From: Bacteroidia bacterium | Lineage (GTDB): Bacteria; Bacteroidota; Bacteroidia; UKL13-3 | Length of the DNA stretch: 34,388 nucleotides | Assembly (NCBI GenBank): GCA_025454975.1 | Contig: JALONK010000031.1 | Span: forward strand, 1 to 34,388 | Direction: 5' to 3' | In this document: positions 5,107 through 16,304 of the stretch, one piece after another | Layout of the letters: each line of letters begins with the position of its first letter | How positions within the stretch are numbered: position 1 is the first letter of the stretch | Program-made: the position numbers and the translations under genes | The notes under the pieces: generated by a model | Told to the model about the DNA's origin: nothing | What the model saw: the letters and a program-made list of their open reading frames with translations, nothing else | Database searches by the model: none

Positions 5107-6180
5107 TTAACGAATGACAAATTGTTTCCAATTAAATTTATCTGTTTTCATTTTCCAGATAAATCCATCAATAACATAATGTAACAATTGTGGTAATGCT
5201 AAAAGCGGAACAAGAAACGGCATACTTTGTTGTGTGAGGTAACCTAAACTAATATCAAAAAAACTGAATATACTTTTATGTTCCAACCAAACAAAACTAT
5301 CCCACAACCACTCTTCAACAAAAGCTAAGCTTAACACTATACCTAAAAAAATCCATATAGCTGATGGTTTAAACAGTGTTGTTTTGGATGATTTATCGGC
5401 TGCATTCATTTTTTTATACCCCCAAATCCAAACCAATGCCATATAGGGAATACCATGAGCAACTACGTTTAACAAAGTAAAAACTAAATCTCCGTTATAC
5501 ATCACAATACCAACATACCAACTTAAACCCGTACCTGCGATTAATATAAATTTAGAAATATTGAATTGTTTATGCAGGGCTAAATACACTTCTTTAAAAA
5601 CAAAAACGGTTAGTATACATAGATAAATAGACCAAAAAACAGGTAATAAAGCGGGGAACTGAAAATAAAAAAAATCGCCTTCAATAAACCAGTTAAACTT
5701 TTTTGGTCCGGTGAGGTGCCAATAAATTATTGGAAAAAGTGTAGAGGTATAAATGGTGATTGTATCAATCCATTGAAAATATTTATGGGTTGGCTGTTGA
5801 TGACTATACAAGCGCATAAATCCGTATTGTTGACGAATGAAATGAAAAACAGCTAAGTAGGCCAAACATCGCCAAAAAAAACCTTCGCCAATGGCATAAG
5901 CAAGCACCGCAAATACATAACAAAGAATTGGTGTGATAATAAAAAACATGCGGTTATTACGAACAGCTTGTTTATCAAAATAGGTTCGATATAAGGTAGT
6001 GTACACGTGCGCTACATCAATAAACACAACTAAAATCAGCCATGCTATATCAGGTAAATGATCATTGCTTTTATATGATGAAGGAAGAAGTATAATAATG
6101 ATAAGCGCCCAAAAAGGCACCCCTAAAATAAATAGATAATCGAACAACGGATGATATAAATAATTACCCTTGATGCGCAT
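5107..6180 (-). CDS. Polytopic membrane protein with conserved-looking intramembrane histidines
   Basis: A 357-residue integral membrane protein with roughly eight to ten hydrophobic helices. I chose the ATG at 6180 (MRIKGNYLYHPLF); the frame is open further upstream but that extension lies in the upstream gene. The start overlaps the end of the amine oxidase gene by 17 bases, so the two are translationally linked. Histidines fall inside or at the ends of helices: H58 in DVAHVYTTLYR, H113 in FHFIRQQYGF, H242 in VAHGIPY and H334 in HYVIDGFIW, with D55 and D338 near them. Such His/Asp spacing recalls membrane metalloenzymes (for example Brp/Blh-type carotene dioxygenases or diiron oxygenases), but I do not recognise a family and the function is unknown. 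It closes the operon that begins with the SpeD-like gene. Confidence 0.75.
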   Translation of the reverse strand: MRIKGNYLYHPLFDYLFILGVPFWALIIIILLPSSYKSNDHLPDIAWLILVVFIDVAHVYTTLYRTYFDKQAVRNNRMFFIITPILCYVFAVLAYAIGEGFFWRCLAYLAVFHFIRQQYGFMRLYSHQQPTHKYFQWIDTITIYTSTLFPIIYWHLTGPKKFNWFIEGDFFYFQFPALLPVFWSIYLCILTVFVFKEVYLALHKQFNISKFILIAGTGLSWYVGIVMYNGDLVFTLLNVVAHGIPYMALVWIWGYKKMNAADKSSKTTLFKPSAIWIFLGIVLSLAFVEEWLWDSFVWLEHKSIFSFFDISLGYLTQQSMPFLVPLLALPQLLHYVIDGFIWKMKTDKFNWKQFVIR

Positions 6181-7759
6181 GTAATATTTGATTAGCAGCA
6201 GATAAACCTTGATGAAATGCTTCTTCAAAAATAGATATTCCTGAATAATCAGTATGGGCAAACAATATTCGTTTGGATGAGTATTCGTGTTTTATCTTCA
6301 ATAATTTTTTCTTTAAGCCAACGGCAGGTAAAACCATTCCATGTCCCCAAATCCATACCTCTATATTGCTCATATAATGTTTAATATTTGGGTGTGCTTG
6401 TTTAAGTTCGTCTATAACAAATGTTTTCCAATCATCTTCATTCCAAAGTTGTATTTTTTGTCGCTCAAGTGCCGGAGTTTGTTTACAAAAACAGTAATAC
6501 AAAGTAATAACGGTATCTTGATTGGGCAAACGTATAGCTTGGTGTTGGGCATGCACATAGCCTAAATTTTCGGCACCATAAATAATATTATCCCAACTTA
6601 AGGGAATGCCTCTGGTGCTTGCAAAATCAGCATTCAAGGTAATATTAATTACAGCCCAAGGTGATGATTCAATGGTTAACTTATTAAATGCTTCAGGTGG
6701 TTGTTTAAGTAATCGTTTGTTGATAAAATGCGGTGTAGCCATTACAACCTGGTTTGCCTTTACGTTAAACGTATGATGTTCTTGCTTCACCTTCACCAAA
6801 ATTGTATCCCTTGATTGGTCGTCAACTTCAACTGCTAAACTATTATTGATGATGTGTTCTTGTAAATCTTTTTTCAGTTTATTTACCAACCAATAATTTC
6901 CTTCGGGCCATGTAATTACGGCATCGCTTTCGGCGTTGGCTGCATTTCCTCGTCGTGAAGCAAAATAATGCAGTCCGGCCCAAGCAGAAACTTGTTGTGC
7001 ATGTCCACCGAAATCATCCTTTAAACAATAATTGATATACCAATACAAAGCACCAGATGTAATTCCGTTTTTAGTAAGAAAATCATGAAAGGAGACATCG
7101 TCTAATTGCAACCATTTTTCATCCATTGATGCTGATTGAACAGGAATTGTAAATGCATGTTTACCATCCTTACCCATGCTTAATTTATATTCATGCATCA
7201 AAGCAAAAAAGCGTTGAAATTGTTGCCGGTCGGCCTCACTTATTTGTTGATGAGGTATTAATCCATCATTCCAAATACCATTCATAAAATGTCGTTCATC
7301 CGGTGCATGGCATATAAACTCTTCATTAATTATTGGTAATTGTTGTTCGTTAAATCCAACAATTACACCAACCTCGTGTAAAAAACTGATTAATGGTTTA
7401 TCATTAGCATCAGGAATGGTAATATAATGAGCACCATAAGGATAGCCGGTGATGTGATTATTACCTGCCAGTGCATTACCTCCTACCCTATCATTTAATT
7501 CGAGTAACAGAAATTGTTCATACCCATTTTTCTTCAAAAAATAGGCTGTTGTTAATCCGGAAACACCACCACCAATGATTAAAGTTTTTATGTTTTTGGT
7601 TTCTTTAGCTACTAGCTTAGATGGTTGCCTGAGTTGATGACCAAGGTGATGAGCGGGTCCGTTAATGGTAACCGAAATTGGTTGTAAGGAGAATTGATTG
7701 CAGGCCGAACCGATGAGCGATGATGACCAAAGAACGGATATGAATTCTTTTCTTTTCAT
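6164..7759 (-). CDS. FAD-dependent amine oxidase-like oxidoreductase, probably exported or lipid-anchored
   Basis: A 531-residue flavoprotein of the flavin-containing amine oxidase/protoporphyrinogen oxidase superfamily. The dinucleotide fold begins at residue 60 with LIIGGGVSGLTTAY (GxGxxG at 63-68), followed by the FAD-ribose glutamate in LLELNDRVGGNA (residues 85-96). The C-terminal FAD motif is present as GISIFEEAFHQG. The N-terminus MKRKEFISVLWSSSLIGSAC looks like an export signal ending in a cysteine, so the enzyme may be exported folded (Tat-like, though only one Arg precedes Lys) and perhaps lipid-modified; this is uncertain. The start at 7759 lies one base after the aminopropyltransferase stop. 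Together with that neighbour, oxidation of a polyamine or an aminopropyl product is a reasonable guess, not shown. Confidence 0.8.
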   Translation of the reverse strand: MKRKEFISVLWSSSLIGSACNQFSLQPISVTINGPAHHLGHQLRQPSKLVAKETKNIKTLIIGGGVSGLTTAYFLKKNGYEQFLLLELNDRVGGNALAGNNHITGYPYGAHYITIPDANDKPLISFLHEVGVIVGFNEQQLPIINEEFICHAPDERHFMNGIWNDGLIPHQQISEADRQQFQRFFALMHEYKLSMGKDGKHAFTIPVQSASMDEKWLQLDDVSFHDFLTKNGITSGALYWYINYCLKDDFGGHAQQVSAWAGLHYFASRRGNAANAESDAVITWPEGNYWLVNKLKKDLQEHIINNSLAVEVDDQSRDTILVKVKQEHHTFNVKANQVVMATPHFINKRLLKQPPEAFNKLTIESSPWAVINITLNADFASTRGIPLSWDNIIYGAENLGYVHAQHQAIRLPNQDTVITLYYCFCKQTPALERQKIQLWNEDDWKTFVIDELKQAHPNIKHYMSNIEVWIWGHGMVLPAVGLKKKLLKIKHEYSSKRILFAHTDYSGISIFEEAFHQGLSAANQILHAHQG

Positions 7760-7760
7760 G

Positions 7761-9278
7761 TTATTGATAAACACTCCACTCTTGTTCAAATAGATGAACC
7801 AACATTTGGTTATTCAACTTATTAATTTCCTTTGTATCAACTTTCATATCGGGAGTAAAGTAGGTTGATTTATTAAACTCATCAATTGTAAAATAACGTG
7901 TTTGTATAGGGATTGCATAGGTTAATAACCGGGGCTGATGTTTAGCTGCAAGATGAAATCCCCATTCACCAAAAGAAGGAACATTGGTATGATAGGGTAA
8001 TGTTTTAAATCCGGCAAATTGAAGAGTATTGTTGATACACCAAAACGATTTTGGTGCAACCAATGGTGAAGTAGATTGTATAACCACCATTCCACTATCA
8101 GCAAGTTTATCATACAACACCTGATAAAAAAGGGTGGAATACAATTTTCCGATGGCGTAATTAGAGGGATCGGGAAAATCAACCACTATTCCATCAAATT
8201 GTTCAGGTTGTGATTTTAACCATTGAAAGGCATCTGTATTAATTACTTTAACTTTTGGATGTACTAATGATGCTTGATTAAGCTGCTGAAGCAAACTGTT
8301 TTTAGAGAATAAATCAGTCATCTTTGCATCTAAATCAACTAAGGTAATTGAGGTAATTTGGGGATATTTTAACAACTCGCGAACTGCCATTCCATCGCCA
8401 CCGCCAAGCACTAGAATTTTCTTATAGTTGTGTTGATGCATTAACGGATGAACCAATGCCTCGTGATAACGATATTCATCAACGGCACTAAATTGAAGGT
8501 TTCCATTTAAGTATAAGCGCAAATCTTTTTTATCTTGGGTAAGCACAATACGTTGGTAAGGTGAAGAACATGAATAAATAATATTTTCATTAAATACCAG
8601 CGACTCGGTCCATGTCATTAAGTAATTAGAAAAAATAAATCCCAACAGCAATAATAGCGCCGATAGAAAACCATAGAGTTTAAGACTAAGGTGATTGTTG
8701 AGTTCTTTACTAAATTTAAATGCCACAATTAATGCTACCGAAATATTAATCAAGCCAAACAGGTAAGAGGTTCGCATTAAACCAAGGTGAGGAATCATTA
8801 CCAATGGAAAAATGATTGAGGCTAACAATGCACCTATATAATCAAAGGTAAATACTTTCGACACCAAGTCTTTAAACTCATACCTATGCTCCAGGATACG
8901 CATCAGCAGCGGTATTTCAAGTCCTACCAATAATCCGGTAATGCCCACCAATGCATACAATATCACTTTAAAAGAAACGGCCAAACCAAATAAAGTAAAT
9001 AATAAAGTTGAACTGATACCGCCAATTAAGCCAACCATTATTTCAATCTTCACAAACCAATTGAGGAGTTTATCTTTAAAAAATTTCGACAAATAAGAAC
9101 CAATACCCATCGAAAAAAGATAAGCCCCAATAATGGTTGAGAATTGAGTTACCGAGTCGCCTAATAAATAACTGGCAACAGTTCCTGCTATTAATTCATA
9201 AATTAAACCACAAGTGGCTACTACAAATACTGAAAGCAGCAACAATAAAGGCTTATCTACTGCTTGTTTATTATCCAT
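7761..9278 (-). CDS. speE: Membrane-fused spermidine synthase-like aminopropyltransferase
   Basis: A 505-residue fusion. Residues 10-222 form about seven transmembrane helices, as in the MFS/spermidine synthase fusions of bacteria. Residues 230-460 are a spermidine synthase-type domain: SPYQRI, YLNGNLQFSAVDEYRYHE (lead-in and the DEYRYHE substrate region), the nucleotide-binding GGGDG at 292-296, the aspartate in LVDLDAK, the DAFQWL motif, and the catalytic-loop equivalent VVDFPDP at 365-371. The key acidic residues appear intact, so aminopropyl transfer from decarboxylated S-adenosylmethionine is expected. The acceptor is unknown; membrane attachment argues against a purely cytosolic putrescine role. 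The ATG at 9278 overlaps the DUF350 gene stop by 8 bases; the longer open frame would run into that gene. Confidence 0.85.
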   Translation of the reverse strand: MDNKQAVDKPLLLLLSVFVVATCGLIYELIAGTVASYLLGDSVTQFSTIIGAYLFSMGIGSYLSKFFKDKLLNWFVKIEIMVGLIGGISSTLLFTLFGLAVSFKVILYALVGITGLLVGLEIPLLMRILEHRYEFKDLVSKVFTFDYIGALLASIIFPLVMIPHLGLMRTSYLFGLINISVALIVAFKFSKELNNHLSLKLYGFLSALLLLLGFIFSNYLMTWTESLVFNENIIYSCSSPYQRIVLTQDKKDLRLYLNGNLQFSAVDEYRYHEALVHPLMHQHNYKKILVLGGGDGMAVRELLKYPQITSITLVDLDAKMTDLFSKNSLLQQLNQASLVHPKVKVINTDAFQWLKSQPEQFDGIVVDFPDPSNYAIGKLYSTLFYQVLYDKLADSGMVVIQSTSPLVAPKSFWCINNTLQFAGFKTLPYHTNVPSFGEWGFHLAAKHQPRLLTYAIPIQTRYFTIDEFNKSTYFTPDMKVDTKEINKLNNQMLVHLFEQEWSVYQ

Positions 9279-9489
9279 TGATAGCAGAGGCGATAATAAT
9301 GCCCAATGCAATAATAAAGGCACCGATTACAATAGCAACGGCATTGTTTTTATGTTCAACAATTTGTTTCCAAACATTTTCGGGTGTAATTTTTTCTACA
9401 ATCCAAAAGGCAATTAATAGCACTACTATTCCGATTCCGGAATAAATTAAAGCGGCTAAGATGTGTTTCAAATCAATTAATTCGTTCAT
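9271..9489 (-). CDS. DUF350 family small membrane protein
   Basis: A 72-residue protein with two transmembrane segments, roughly residues 9-31 and 48-70. The pattern matches the DUF350 (YjfL-like) unit: a first helix ending in IAFWIVEKITP, a short polar loop, then an amphipathic-to-hydrophobic helix beginning NNAVAIVIGAFIIALGIIIA. Most family members have several such units in tandem; here a single two-helix unit is present, so the protein probably oligomerises. DUF350 genes recur beside SpeD/SpeE-like, DUF4178 and PspA-type genes in bacteria and are associated with envelope stress, although the molecular activity is not known. The start lies 11 bp after the preceding small gene. Confidence 0.8.
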   Translation of the reverse strand: MNELIDLKHILAALIYSGIGIVVLLIAFWIVEKITPENVWKQIVEHKNNAVAIVIGAFIIALGIIIASAING

Positions 9490-9500
9490 TGTTGTATGTA

Positions 9501-9689
9501 TTATTTATGATAAAATCTACTTCTTCCTCCCCCGGAATGATGTGTTCTTCCTTTGCTTTCGCTTACATTTTCTACTTCATCTGAGTTAAAAATTTTCCAA
9601 CCGGTATAACTTGCATAGCTATATAATAAAATCATCCCTAATAAAAGTGATGCCATGACAATATTTAAAGGATTTAAAAAATTTTTCAT
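9501..9689 (-). CDS. Very small single-pass membrane protein
   Basis: A 62-residue protein starting at the ATG at 9689, which overlaps the stop of the upstream DUF4178 gene in an ATGA arrangement. That overlap decides the start over the longer frame. One transmembrane helix (about residues 10-27, IVMASLLLGMILLYSYA) is followed by a short hydrophilic tail ending SGGGRSRFYHK, rich in Ser, Gly, His and Arg. The size and its place between the DUF4178 and DUF350 genes suggest an accessory subunit of a membrane complex. I do not recognise a family. The tight overlap on one side and the 11-bp gap on the other are good evidence that it is a real gene. Confidence 0.65.
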   Translation of the reverse strand: MKNFLNPLNIVMASLLLGMILLYSYASYTGWKIFNSDEVENVSESKGRTHHSGGGRSRFYHK

Positions 9690-10981
9690 GTTTGGTAAAA
9701 TGATATTTGTCGAGAAAAATTTGTTGCCTCCCAACGTTTGTTTTCAAATAAATATAGTCGCAATAATTGAATGGCCGGTAATAGCAATCCAATAAATAAA
9801 AGCCAAACAAAATTAGAAGTAATAGATACGCCTTCAAAAACTTTAATGGTGTAGGTAACTTGATTTAGCGAAGGATTTGTTAAGGGATAAAGGTTTAAGT
9901 GATAAGTACCCGCAGGTACTTGAGAAATGATGATATAATCGCTTTTACTACCTTCAGACCAATAACCTTCGCTATCATAACCTCGATAAAACTCAATTGA
10001 TTTTGCTCCTTCATAACGTTGGAAGGTAACATCATTCACTAGTTCAAAATCGAGGTCAAACCAATTATTTGTTACATCAGCATACACATCAACTTGCAAT
10101 GAAGTAGGATCACCTGTAACCTGAAAAGGAGGTGTAACTAAAACTGATGCAGTATCTGTTGCCGATTTTGTAAATGTTTGTCCAAACACTTTTCGTTCGA
10201 TATTATTTTGATTCAGGAAGGCATATAAGAAGCTTATCAAAACAACATAAGCCACAAGCATGTATAACAAATGGGAAGCCTTTTGATAAAATGACATGGT
10301 TTGAATGGCACCGATATCAATTTTCGCCGGCATCACCAGAATATCAAATGCTTTTTTAATTACAGATGATTTTATTTCTCGTGCCATGTACCAAAGTTCT
10401 TCCTCATCCTTAAATTCTTCTTTGATTAACATTAAAGGAGGAGCAATCCATTCCGTACATTTATATTCTTTATCGTCGAGAATATCGGCAGCAAATTCTC
10501 CTGCTGCTTCTACTACTGTTGAACGATATGAATTATACATTTGAAATTTGATGCCATCTAAAATTGCCACCCGATTGATTTGCTTGTATTCAATGTTGTT
10601 TTCCCGTGAAATGGGCTCAATCAGCATCCAATGCCCATCTGATTCTACCAAACTTCTTAAACCAACCTCAGGATTAAAAAGTATATATTCATTCCACGTA
10701 TAAACTTTTCCAATCTGTTTATGCTTGGCAAATCCTACAACAGTGTATGTGGTATCGAATAGCTTTGCAGTTTGGTTAATTAAGATGTCGGGCATTGGTT
10801 TATTAGAAAAGGTATGTTTGCTTACCCATCCTAACCCATTATGATTTACATGATAATTACCGCATTTGGTACATACCCAACCTGCAGATGAATAACCGAA
10901 AGTAATGGTATTTTTATGACTGCATTGTTTACAGTGTACTTCATACCGTTGAGGTGATTGCGTTGTTTGAATGTCAGTCAT
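9686..10981 (-). CDS. Zinc-ribbon DUF4178 protein with an extracytoplasmic beta domain
   Basis: A 431-residue protein in several parts. Residues 17-40 carry two CxxC pairs (CKQC and CTKC), a zinc ribbon. Residues ~68-210 fit DUF4178: a strand pair around YTVVGFAKHKQIGKVYTWNEYILF followed by a WMLIEP strand. A transmembrane helix at ~237-257 leads to a beta-rich segment (~265-385, with motifs such as FDLDFELVND and VPAGTYHLNLYP), then a second helix at ~388-410 and a short basic tail. The beta segment should therefore lie outside the cytoplasm. The start overlaps the preceding gene by one base (TAATG). DUF4178 proteins recur next to SpeD/SpeE-like and DUF350 genes; their biochemical role is not established. 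Confidence 0.75.
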   Translation of the reverse strand: MTDIQTTQSPQRYEVHCKQCSHKNTITFGYSSAGWVCTKCGNYHVNHNGLGWVSKHTFSNKPMPDILINQTAKLFDTTYTVVGFAKHKQIGKVYTWNEYILFNPEVGLRSLVESDGHWMLIEPISRENNIEYKQINRVAILDGIKFQMYNSYRSTVVEAAGEFAADILDDKEYKCTEWIAPPLMLIKEEFKDEEELWYMAREIKSSVIKKAFDILVMPAKIDIGAIQTMSFYQKASHLLYMLVAYVVLISFLYAFLNQNNIERKVFGQTFTKSATDTASVLVTPPFQVTGDPTSLQVDVYADVTNNWFDLDFELVNDVTFQRYEGAKSIEFYRGYDSEGYWSEGSKSDYIIISQVPAGTYHLNLYPLTNPSLNQVTYTIKVFEGVSITSNFVWLLFIGLLLPAIQLLRLYLFENKRWEATNFSRQISFYQT

Positions 10982-11598
10982 TATGGTTTCACCTCCAATG
11001 TTTTATTCGCTGCTAAAAACCTAACAAATCCACCAAACAATACTATGTATTTATTTTTATTTTTAATTAATACACACAAGTTTCCACTTTTGTTGGTTGC
11101 TTTACTAATAAAAAAAGTATCGGTTAATAGCCTGCTATTAGTTACCTCACCTGCCAAACGTGTTAATTCATTTTTGCTGTTATAACAGATGTAATATGGA
11201 TTATCTTTTGTTTTTAAAGTGTATGGCGAACCTAATTTCATAGGCCAAACAAATGAAGGTACATCCATGGATAACTCCAGCAGCATTATTTCGCCAACAG
11301 TTTCCCATACATACAATGTAGGATGTTGGGCATGATACAAAACCCATACATGCTGAATGGAACTGTCAATAAAAAACTGGTAACAACCTATGATGGTATA
11401 GATTTGCTGATTAAAAGTTATGGAATCGCCTAATGAAAATCGCGAATAGGATTTTACCACAAGAAAGCCTTTTTCCGGTTGATTATCGCCACCATAAGTT
11501 TCGTTGCGTTTAATATAACTGCAACAACTCACACAGCTAAATACATCTGCCTCCGGTAGCACAAATTGATGGGTATAATTACAAACCAAACAAGCCAT
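10981..11598 (-). CDS. Zinc-ribbon DUF4178-like protein, short paralog
   Basis: A 205-residue soluble protein. It opens with a zinc-ribbon-like pair CLVC (3-6) and CVSC/C (22-26). Residues ~53-120 resemble the DUF4178 core (FSLGDSITFNQQIYTIIGCY, then VWVLYHA and ETVGEIMLLE), the same order as in its larger neighbour. A second, weaker repeat of the beta pattern follows to the C-terminus. It overlaps the SpeD-like gene and the larger DUF4178 gene by a single base on each side (TAATG), so coupled translation is likely. The paralogy with the downstream gene suggests a duplicated sensor or scaffold pair, one cytosolic and one membrane-bound; this is inference. Confidence 0.7.
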   Translation of the reverse strand: MACLVCNYTHQFVLPEADVFSCVSCCSYIKRNETYGGDNQPEKGFLVVKSYSRFSLGDSITFNQQIYTIIGCYQFFIDSSIQHVWVLYHAQHPTLYVWETVGEIMLLELSMDVPSFVWPMKLGSPYTLKTKDNPYYICYNSKNELTRLAGEVTNSRLLTDTFFISKATNKSGNLCVLIKNKNKYIVLFGGFVRFLAANKTLEVKP

Positions 11599-11957
11599 TA
11601 CCTGTAAATTTCGTGATAGTTAATGTGCTCGGTCTTAAGCCAATTTTTAACCGACTCGTAGATAGATTTTGTTTTTGCATTATTATCAAACTGATAATTG
11701 GACAAAAAAACATCAAAAGTAGCTATTCCATATTCGGGCCAGGTATGCATGCTTATATGCGATTCGGTTAAACATAAGTTTGATGTATATCCCCCACCTT
11801 CAAACCGATGATGTACCTCGCCAATAAGTTGCAACTGATGTTGTGCTAATAATTGGTGCAAGAGCAATTTAAATCCGGTTAAATCAGTTAATGGTTCCCC
11901 ATTTACTTCTTTAAAATCGGCTATGATATGCAATCCGGGTGTATACATGCGTGGCAT
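11598..11957 (-). CDS. speD: SpeD-like pyruvoyl-dependent decarboxylase (S-adenosylmethionine decarboxylase family)
   Basis: A 119-residue protein of the short bacterial/archaeal AdoMet decarboxylase family. The block HRF, then LTESHISMHTWPEYG, matches the family signature. The self-cleavage serine that becomes the pyruvoyl group is Ser66 (ESH), and the processing histidine is His71 (MHTWPE). Twenty residues after the serine the family has a catalytic Cys in DxFTCG; here the sequence is DVFLSN, giving Ser86 instead. The enzyme may thus be slow, altered in substrate, or use another proton donor. SpeD homologues acting on ornithine or arginine are known, so the substrate should not be assumed. 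I start at the ATG at 11957; the frame extends to a GTG at 11993 through a ten-base A run, which looks less likely. First gene of the operon. Confidence 0.85.
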   Translation of the reverse strand: MPRMYTPGLHIIADFKEVNGEPLTDLTGFKLLLHQLLAQHQLQLIGEVHHRFEGGGYTSNLCLTESHISMHTWPEYGIATFDVFLSNYQFDNNAKTKSIYESVKNWLKTEHINYHEIYR

Positions 11958-13606: not shown

Positions 13607-15043
13607 ATGGAAGCCATTATAATTTTTATCTTACTCTTGCTCGTCATTTTTTTGTCGAGTTGGCGCAATATAAAATACGGTGTGCTTACTAACTTTGCTT
13701 TATCTAATAAAACAATTGTTTTACTTCCAACGGATGTATTTAAAGAAGTATGGTATCCTTTTTTAAATATGTACTTTCCTTATTTCCAACAACTGGATGA
13801 AGCAGGGAAAGATAAGTTTAGCAGTAAGTTAATTAAAAACCTGCGCAGCTTGGAGATCTTCGGCAGAGATGACTTTGAAGTGAATGATGAAATGAGGGTA
13901 TTGTTATGTGCAACCCTTACTCAACTTACTTTCGGACTCAAAAGGCAAGGACTTGATGGGTATAAAGTTATCCATGTATATCCTTCATCATTTTACAGCA
14001 AATATGAAAAAGGCTACGTGGATGCTGTAACATTTAATAAAAACCTGATCTCTATTTCTTGGCAACGATTTGAAAAAGGTATCTTAAATCAAACCGACGG
14101 CATAAATTTAGGCTTGGCAGAAATGGGGCTTGCATTGGTTCATACTATTAAAAACGGCGAATCATTCGATTTACATTTTGCAAGTTACTATGATAAGTGG
14201 GTACAAATTGTTGAGGAATCGGAAGATATTGTTTCGTTCTTAGATTATATTGGTGTATCTGCTGAATACACAAACAAAGCCGAATTATTTGCTCAAGCAG
14301 TGGTTTACTTTTTTGAAAAGCCACATGAGTTTAAATCTAAATATGCTACTCAATATGCGCATTTGTGTTTGTTGTTAAACCAAAATCCTGTTGCTGATGA
14401 AAAAAATTACAGCTACGAGCGTGATGCATTTAAACATAAGTCGCTAACCTACGAACTGCCTTCAAAGGTTAGTACCAGTTATCAATACCACACTTGGCAT
14501 TGGATCTATTCCTTTTCTATTATCACACCAATGGCATTGCCCTTTTTGGCTAGTTATTATTTCATGGCTGATCATGTGATTAATGTAACTGAATTGGTTT
14601 TTATAATGATGGCTATTGGTTTGCTTTTAACCGGAATTTTATATCAATACAATTTTAAAAGTAAGCTGTTTAACAATTCCTTTAAACTTGGCGGTTTTTG
14701 CACCTTAGCAGTTTCACCATGGCTATTGGCCATAGGGCTGATGATTAATGACCGAATTATCTTAACTACTTACAACGAATCACACCCAATATTAAATGCC
14801 ACGGTTATTTTTGAAGGTGAAACCAGAAGAAGTTCAGGGTATGCTAGTGAAGTCGAATTTTTGTTTGCCGATCAATTTTTGGAAGATTATCCTTATGCCA
14901 GAAGGGCAAATAATATGCCCGGTGAAATGGGTGCTTTTAAAGATGCATATATTTCATTTGAACTTTGCAAAGGAATATTTGGTATTACTTATATCAGGGA
15001 TAAAAAAATAATTCAATCTAAACCTAATCAAATCAACTCCTAA
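13607..15043 (+). CDS. MtfA-like protein with a lost zinc-peptidase motif and membrane anchors
   Basis: A 478-residue protein. One N-terminal transmembrane helix (residues 3-18) is followed by a domain (about 45-260) that follows the order of the MtfA (M90) peptidase family: FEVNDEMRVLLCATLTQL, VIHVYPSSFY, ISISWQRFEKG, then the place of the NLxxHEFAH motif, and later ELFAQAVVYFFEKP. At the HExxH site the sequence is GLAEMGLALVHT, so both zinc histidines are gone (Ala171 and Leu175) while the glutamate remains. The later Glu226 is kept. Proteolysis is therefore unlikely. About three transmembrane helices (residues ~295-395) and a ~90-residue tail follow. It sits between miaB and the sigma-54 activator with gaps of 13 and 4 bp. 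A binding or scaffold role is my inference. Confidence 0.6.
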   Translation: MEAIIIFILLLLVIFLSSWRNIKYGVLTNFALSNKTIVLLPTDVFKEVWYPFLNMYFPYFQQLDEAGKDKFSSKLIKNLRSLEIFGRDDFEVNDEMRVLLCATLTQLTFGLKRQGLDGYKVIHVYPSSFYSKYEKGYVDAVTFNKNLISISWQRFEKGILNQTDGINLGLAEMGLALVHTIKNGESFDLHFASYYDKWVQIVEESEDIVSFLDYIGVSAEYTNKAELFAQAVVYFFEKPHEFKSKYATQYAHLCLLLNQNPVADEKNYSYERDAFKHKSLTYELPSKVSTSYQYHTWHWIYSFSIITPMALPFLASYYFMADHVINVTELVFIMMAIGLLLTGILYQYNFKSKLFNNSFKLGGFCTLAVSPWLLAIGLMINDRIILTTYNESHPILNATVIFEGETRRSSGYASEVEFLFADQFLEDYPYARRANNMPGEMGAFKDAYISFELCKGIFGITYIRDKKIIQSKPNQINS

Positions 15044-15047
15044 TTAT

Positions 15048-16304
15048 ATGAATTTACAGGAAGTAAAACAACGTTTTGAAATTATAGGAAATTCACCCCT
15101 ACTCAATATTGCTTTAGAAACAGCAATTAAAGTAGCTCCAACCGATATTTCGGTATTAATTTATGGTGAAAGTGGCGTAGGTAAAGAGGCTTTCAGTAAA
15201 ATCATACATGCATTAAGCAACCGGAAACATGGTAATTTTATTGCTGTAAACTGTGGTGCAATTCCTGAAGGCACAATTGATTCGGAATTATTCGGACATG
15301 AGAAAGGTTCGTTTACCGGTGCACACGACACACGCAAAGGTTATTTTGAAACCGTAAATGGCGGAACCATTTTTTTGGATGAAGTTGGTGAACTTCCATT
15401 GGAAACACAAGCCCGTTTGTTGCGCGTTTTAGAAAGTGGGGAATTTATTAAAGTAGGTTCATCAAAAGTTCAAAAAACAGATGTGCGTGTAGTGGCTGCC
15501 ACTAACAAAGATTTATTAGAATTGGCTTCGAGAGAAAAATTCAGAGAAGATTTATATTACCGCTTAAGTACTGTTCCGATTAAGGTTCCACCATTACGCG
15601 AACGCAAGGAAGATATTCATTTGTTGTTTAGAAAATTCGCCGCAGATTTTTCTGAAAAATACCGCTCCAAAATTGTAACCCTAGAACCCGATGCTTTACA
15701 AATGGTACAAAACTACAGTTGGCCGGGTAATATTCGTCAGTTAAAAAATATTGCCGAACAACTAAGTGTGCTTGATGAAGATAAAGTGGTGAACGGTCAT
15801 GAACTTCAACGAATATTGCCGCCTGAACGCACCAGTTTACCGATGTTGCTGGGCACTCAGGTAGAAAACGGTATGAGCGAACGTGATATTTTTTACAAAG
15901 TACTTATTGACCTTAGAAAAGATATGAACGACCTAAAAGGCATAGTATTTGGAATGTTACAAAACGGAGCCTCAACAGAAGCCATGAATACTGTTGTGCA
16001 AAGCATGAACAGAACCATGCATCAATCTGAACAATTGAATACGGTTGTAGCTGCTGCTCCTAATTATTACCAACCTGTTCAGCAGGTAATGCCAATTAAT
16101 GGAGGCGTTCAACCCATCAATCATATTATTGAAATTGATGATGCCACTCCATTGCCCGAGTCGCTTTCTATTGAAGATAAAGAAATTGAATTGATAAAAA
16201 AAGCCTTACAAAAATATAATGGCAGAAGGAAAAAGGCGGCTGCCGAACTCGGTATAAGTGAACGAACTTTATACAGAAAAATTAAACAATACGATTTAGA
16301 ATAA
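15048..16304 (+). CDS. Sigma-54 interaction (AAA+) transcriptional activator without receiver domain
   Basis: A 418-residue bacterial enhancer-binding protein. The AAA+ domain starts almost at the N-terminus: Walker A GESGVGKE (40-47), sigma-54 contact loop GSFTGA (87-92, a Ser variant of GAFTGA), Walker B GGTIFLDE (105-112), and the arginine-rich RLSTVP/PPLRERKEDI region. A linker of about 110 residues is followed by a Fis-type helix-turn-helix at the C-terminus (YNGRRKKAAAELGISERTLYR). There is no receiver, GAF or PAS domain, so its activity is probably controlled by another protein or by its level. The membrane-anchored MtfA-like protein directly upstream (4-bp gap) is a candidate partner, as MtfA of enterobacteria binds a transcription factor (Mlc); that link is inference. 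Confidence 0.92.
   Translation: MNLQEVKQRFEIIGNSPLLNIALETAIKVAPTDISVLIYGESGVGKEAFSKIIHALSNRKHGNFIAVNCGAIPEGTIDSELFGHEKGSFTGAHDTRKGYFETVNGGTIFLDEVGELPLETQARLLRVLESGEFIKVGSSKVQKTDVRVVAATNKDLLELASREKFREDLYYRLSTVPIKVPPLRERKEDIHLLFRKFAADFSEKYRSKIVTLEPDALQMVQNYSWPGNIRQLKNIAEQLSVLDEDKVVNGHELQRILPPERTSLPMLLGTQVENGMSERDIFYKVLIDLRKDMNDLKGIVFGMLQNGASTEAMNTVVQSMNRTMHQSEQLNTVVAAAPNYYQPVQQVMPINGGVQPINHIIEIDDATPLPESLSIEDKEIELIKKALQKYNGRRKKAAAELGISERTLYRKIKQYDLE

Follow-up and report, generated by a model that had tools for sequence, protein, structure and literature searches.

In a 34,388-nucleotide stretch of DNA (the window) from Bacteroidia bacterium (GTDB UKL13-3; assembly GCA_025454975.1, contig JALONK010000031.1), the first gene of a conserved operon encodes an AdoMet_dc protein, here the window SpeD, in which a serine, Ser86, occupies the site of the catalytic cysteine of known AdoMet decarboxylases (AdoMetDCs). 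This replacement is a property of a whole Bacteroidota clade, not of the window genome alone. The reading that we favour, and consider probable on balance, is that the window SpeD is an AdoMetDC with Ser at the proton-donor site, which would feed dcAdoMet to its partner in the operon. Furthermore, the Ser form looks like a working natural variant rather than a broken gene, since the swap is common to an entire branch that keeps the gene in a conserved operon. The features of the locus are collected in Table 1.

Table 1. The speD operon of the window and the key codons of speD
Feature	Position	Strand	Basis or remark
speD-like ORF, 119 aa	11598..11957	(-)	AdoMet_dc protein, Ser86 replacing catalytic Cys
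Ser66 codon TCG	11760-11762	(-)	predicted self-cleavage site and pyruvoyl precursor
His71 codon	11745-11747	(-)	+5 from Ser66
Ser86 codon TCC	11700-11702	(-)	proton-donor Cys site in known AdoMetDCs
DUF4178-related protein, 205 aa	10981..11598	(-)	iterated HMM; no own Pfam match above cut-off; one-base overlap with speD
DUF4178 protein, 431 aa	9686..10981	(-)	Pfam
Small protein, 77 aa as listed	9501..9734	(-)	TTG start, true start uncertain; in 68/77 Ser-type loci
DUF350 membrane protein, 72 aa	9271..9489	(-)	family match
Membrane domain fused to spermidine-synthase-like aminopropyltransferase	7761..9323	(-)	NF002956, 652 bits; start probably somewhat downstream of 9323
FAD-dependent amine-oxidase-like protein	6164..7789	(-)	PF01593
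Membrane protein without family, 384 aa	5107..6261	(-)	ORF

The window SpeD, whose residues are counted from the ATG at 11957, matches the Pfam AdoMet_dc family over its whole length with 80.3 bits (gathering score 25), and reaches 72 bits with TIGR03330, the NCBIfam equivalog for AdoMetDC, just below the cut-off of 75.65. Residues Ser66, His71, Glu75, Phe52, Thr58 and Ser86 were placed by alignment to the AdoMetDCs of Thermotoga maritima and Aquifex; the Aquifex alignment reaches residue 85, and the Thermotoga alignment spans the whole stretch from 66 to 86, with exactly 20 residues from Ser66 to Ser86 and no insertion or deletion. The preliminary description had reported Ser66 and His71 at their usual spacing and, 20 residues past Ser66, FLSN where FTCG is expected, so that Ser stands in the position of the catalytic Cys; the minus-strand ORF and the gapless alignment bear out all of this. 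The window SpeD resembles the class 1b AdoMetDCs (SpeD/SpeH; T. maritima 1tlu, A. aeolicus 2iii) in fold, length, the Ser pyruvoyl precursor with His at +5 that serve self-cleavage, and the Glu and Phe positions, and differs from them in having Ser for the catalytic Cys at +20, a Leu85/Asn87/Asn92 signature and Thr58 aligned with Ser55 of the T. maritima enzyme. The AlphaFold model (mean pLDDT 94.9) is that of a predicted AdoMetDC fold: in a Foldseek search of the PDB the five best matches are all AdoMetDC chains (TM 0.76-0.82; 2iii 0.82, 1tlu 0.77), and human spermine synthase comes next, with a TM to the query of 0.52-0.58.

An initial search for AdoMet_dc among relatives gave matches in 8 of 58 genomes, own genome counted, and the five proteins of the window's subfamily that it yielded all read LSN. 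The named genome contigs gave no match when scanned with the window protein alone as query; with an alignment as query, the best 80 of 580 relatives were kept. To these was added a draw of 395 genomes across the phylum, 80 of which have an AdoMet_dc match, 17 ordinary high scorers (136-143 bits) being left unread. After removal of six short duplicate loci (L001, L004-L008), the alignment scan and the phylum draw together gave 147 usable SpeD rows, in which position 86 is Ser in 77 and Cys in 69, the remaining row (L091) being incomplete with no residue there. Such a split, with Ser in all 77 rows of the clade and Cys in the 69 other complete rows, is far above chance. Ser-type rows were found in Sphingobacteriaceae, Chitinophagaceae, Hymenobacteraceae, Spirosomataceae, Cytophagaceae and further Bacteroidota. 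Ten of the Cys rows (L123, L125, L128, L130-L136), here the Cys86 rows, have the LxN...DN signature of the subfamily but carry Cys86 together with Cys69. Two proteins outside the HMM matches, read by hand, both have Cys at +20; they are very divergent AdoMet_dc proteins (L137:8178-8522 and L139:8103-8447) that lack the ESH motif and retain the Ser, the His at +5 and the Cys at +20. Within the genus of the window, the AdoMet_dc gene was seen in only two (G000 and G001) of nine genomes (G000-G008), several of them incomplete, so the operon is patchy at this level. Three SpeDs of phages and plasmids were translated and all three have Cys. That of Croceibacter phage P2559S, which is listed among the AdoMetDC-encoding phages in PMC9992855, keeps the Cys and has Thr at the Ser55 position, and in the Persicobacter plasmid pPP3 (L157) a Cys-type speD is directly followed by an agmatinase-family gene.

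Throughout the 77 Ser-type rows, Ser66, His71, Glu75, Phe52 and Thr58 are invariant; Phe52 and Glu75 we take to be AdoMet-contact positions of known AdoMetDCs. Another Cys placed at the site, which the preliminary description had named as something that would overturn its reading, was looked for, and a substitute elsewhere in the protein is ruled out, no Cys being invariant in the clade: Cys62 is Ala or Gly in 15/77 rows, and the next commonest, Cys29, is present in 38/77. Leaving out the duplicates L013 and L127, the 75 non-duplicate Ser-type genes encode Ser86 by TCN in 63 cases and by AGY in 12. Close pairs of genes have dN/dS of 0.06-0.13 in the eight of 13 pairs that could be computed, two of them pairs of the Cys86 clade, the other five being saturated; on these values a decaying gene was rejected, and the speD-like gene is under purifying selection.

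The gene heads its operon, with the partner genes downstream on the same strand, and speD and the next two ORFs share one base with each neighbour. The arrangement is strongly conserved: in the 75 non-duplicate Ser loci DUF4178 was found in 75, the small protein in 66, DUF350 in 64, the aminopropyltransferase in 74, the oxidase in 72 and the last membrane protein in 59, some of the absences being due to contig ends, and the 363 matches to the five families checked for orientation are all, without exception, downstream of speD and on its strand. With duplicates included, 76 of 77 loci have the aminopropyltransferase, the exception (L065) being a contig of 4.6 kb. The HMM of the 205-aa protein and that of DUF4178 match the same ORFs, hence counts obtained with the two are not independent. 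The same set of genes accompanies the ten Cys86 rows (DUF4178 in 10, small protein in 9, DUF350 in 10, aminopropyltransferase in 10, oxidase in 8, membrane protein in 7). Among the 59 other Cys rows, many of them on loci of about 3 kb that give a partial view of the neighbourhood, DUF4178 was seen in 3 and DUF350 in 6; the genes for DUF4178, DUF350 and the aminopropyltransferase also form an operon in L143, L144 and L145, with an ordinary Cys-type SpeD at its end. In the operon of Solitalea agri (L017) the genes for DUF4178, the small protein and DUF350 occur twice, the duplication being at around 9.9-12.9 kb. In the window, a radical-SAM/TRAM gene adjoins the operon divergently and is followed by a sigma-54 activator and an M90 peptidase-like gene (15048-16304 and 13607-15043).

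The operon type is already known from the literature, and for the Ser variant of SpeD we found no printed mention in the open-access papers searched. The system of Li et al. 2019 (Biochem J) reportedly likewise has a SpeD adjoining a membrane-fused spermidine-synthase-like protein and DUF350, and is reported to pair working AdoMetDCs with membrane-fused synthase-like proteins that form no spermidine. The co-occurrence of a membrane-fused aminopropyltransferase, DUF350 and DUF4178 that is seen in the window also resembles the PSP-associated operon, which combines a spermine-synthase/7TM gene with DUF350 and DUF4178 (PMC11237479). The window operon differs in that it includes SpeD and a flavin oxidase, and none of its genes was recognised as PspA or CesT/Tir.

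In practically every row the partner domain preserves YQ, DExxYHE, GGGDG, DxD and DxxDP, which we take to be the motifs of the dcAdoMet site, and its PDB matches are thermospermine and spermidine synthases. The own genome has no other strong Spermine_synth match, the second, at 26 bits, having a stop inside. In all nine Ser-form genomes (G001 and G051 being incomplete) there is exactly one AdoMet_dc match. If the partner works, its dcAdoMet donor is most simply supplied by the Ser enzyme. As regards other polyamine genes, the own genome has an arginine-decarboxylase-like ORF (88 bits, below the SpeA cut-off); it has nothing above the cut-off for NspC of the carboxyspermidine route, with one match of 45 bits. 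Class 2 AdoMetDC had no match in 19 genomes, in which the control likewise matched nowhere.

The Cys of known AdoMetDCs supplies the proton to the carbon from which CO2 has departed, and human AdoMetDC without this Cys reportedly has lower activity and more transamination of the cofactor. Since Ser is a far weaker acid than Cys, protonation may be aided by water or by another group, the enzyme may be slow, or the cofactor may suffer stray protonation. The active-site Cys is needed for decarboxylation according to PMC10407285, and a weak enzyme, as the preliminary description had suggested, is possible. For the mechanism we infer self-cleavage, AdoMet as the substrate, the route of protonation and the kind of acceptor, as follows. 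The predicted SpeD would cleave itself at Ser66, and the resulting pyruvoyl group would form a Schiff base with AdoMet. Once CO2 has left, the carbanion would receive its proton by way of Ser86, probably together with a bound water or a nearby group. The membrane-fused aminopropyltransferase, whose gene lies about 2.3 kb further downstream in the operon, would then use the dcAdoMet to aminopropylate an acceptor, not necessarily putrescine. Leu85, Asn87 and Asn92, which also differ from ordinary SpeD in the Ser clade, suggest a rebuilt active site, and the same neighbours occur in the Cys86 clade, so that Ser is not the only residue that goes with this rebuilding.

The absence of the proton-donor residue from every member of the clade would also fit a catalytically poor or dead SpeD, retained for a regulatory or structural role like that of the trypanosome prozyme, and activation of AdoMetDC by a dead paralogue is on record (PMC6221367). 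We regard this as unlikely, however, because none of the nine Ser-form genomes holds a second SpeD to be activated, Ser66 and His71, both needed for self-cleavage, are invariant, and the downstream aminopropyltransferase would be left with no donor.

A new substrate, which the preliminary description had proposed as one meaning of the Ser, is disfavoured: the Phe and Glu at the presumed AdoMet contacts are retained in 77/77 rows, the partner preserves its dcAdoMet-site motifs, and the Cys86 clade sits in the same operon. Some features do stand against the AdoMetDC reading, namely a stem of 2.31 changes per column between the combined Ser and Cys86 clade and ordinary SpeD, and TIGR03330 scores below the cut-off in five of six Ser-type proteins (L060, at 78.3 bits, is above it); this long branch and these scores would agree with a SpeD homologue whose decarboxylation substrate is ornithine, arginine or some other amino acid, and with Leu85, Asn87, Asn92 and Thr58 changed too, a drift in substrate is conceivable. 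Such shifts are documented for many phyla in SpeDA and SpeDC, the pyruvoyl arginine and ornithine decarboxylases (PMC10407285), and substrate-shifted SpeDs are also described in PMC9992855. Like the window SpeD these are divergent SpeD homologues, but they differ in context, having been looked for in genomes without SpeE or with a second SpeD (PMC10407285), whereas the window SpeD is the single one of its genome and, like nearly all of its clade, has an aminopropyltransferase in its operon. The arginine-decarboxylase-like ORF of the own genome also argues against the shift, which we consider quite improbable.

Very unlikely is a reaction redirected by the Ser, in which the carbon of the cofactor would be protonated to give an aldehyde and an amino-cofactor, recycled or used once: the flavin amine-oxidase-like gene of the operon and the conversion of pyruvoyl to alanine in the normal enzyme (PMC10407285) would fit it, as would the human mutant mentioned above, but it would be suicidal without a recycling step, the partner retains a dcAdoMet site, and the Cys86 clade has the same operon.

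The AdoMetDC reading leaves the history of position 86 to be considered, for which trees were built on thinned sets (94 rows in a quick partner tree, 65 in a careful one and 101 in the SpeD tree). In the SpeD tree, Ser and Cys86 rows form one clade against the other SpeDs (support 96/99), within which the Cys86 rows are a clade (100/99), nested in the Ser rows with weak support (82/85). Position 69 is Cys in 10/10 Cys86 rows and Ser (73/77) or Ala in the Ser clade, and positions 69 and 86 thus pair as Ser/Ser in one clade versus Cys/Cys in the other. The Ser rows stood as one side of a branch in 0 of 200 bootstrap trees, and in the AU test their forming a single clade was not rejected (p 0.377), which makes the regain of Cys a lead rather than a result. 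Judged from these sequences, the order of events may have been a Ser replacement followed by a return of Cys, or the Cys86 lineage may have split off first. Few of the deep branches in the aminopropyltransferase trees are firm, and these trees do not settle the order; the quick tree places the partners of L143 and L144 inside the Ser-type partners with modest support, and the careful tree places that of L143 there with weak support. Our tentative and somewhat doubtful proposal is that of an AdoMetDC branch without the Cys donor, running on Ser or on a Ser-held water, in which one lineage has Cys again. If this is true, a residue held to be essential for protonation would be evolutionarily interchangeable within one operon.

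For the family, one practical consequence is that searches that insist on FTCG, or on a score above the curated cut-off, miss most of the Ser branch. The two clades provide natural Ser/Cys pairs for probing the role of the proton donor in pyruvoyl decarboxylases, and their operon, widespread in Bacteroidota, seems to yield some aminopropylated product.
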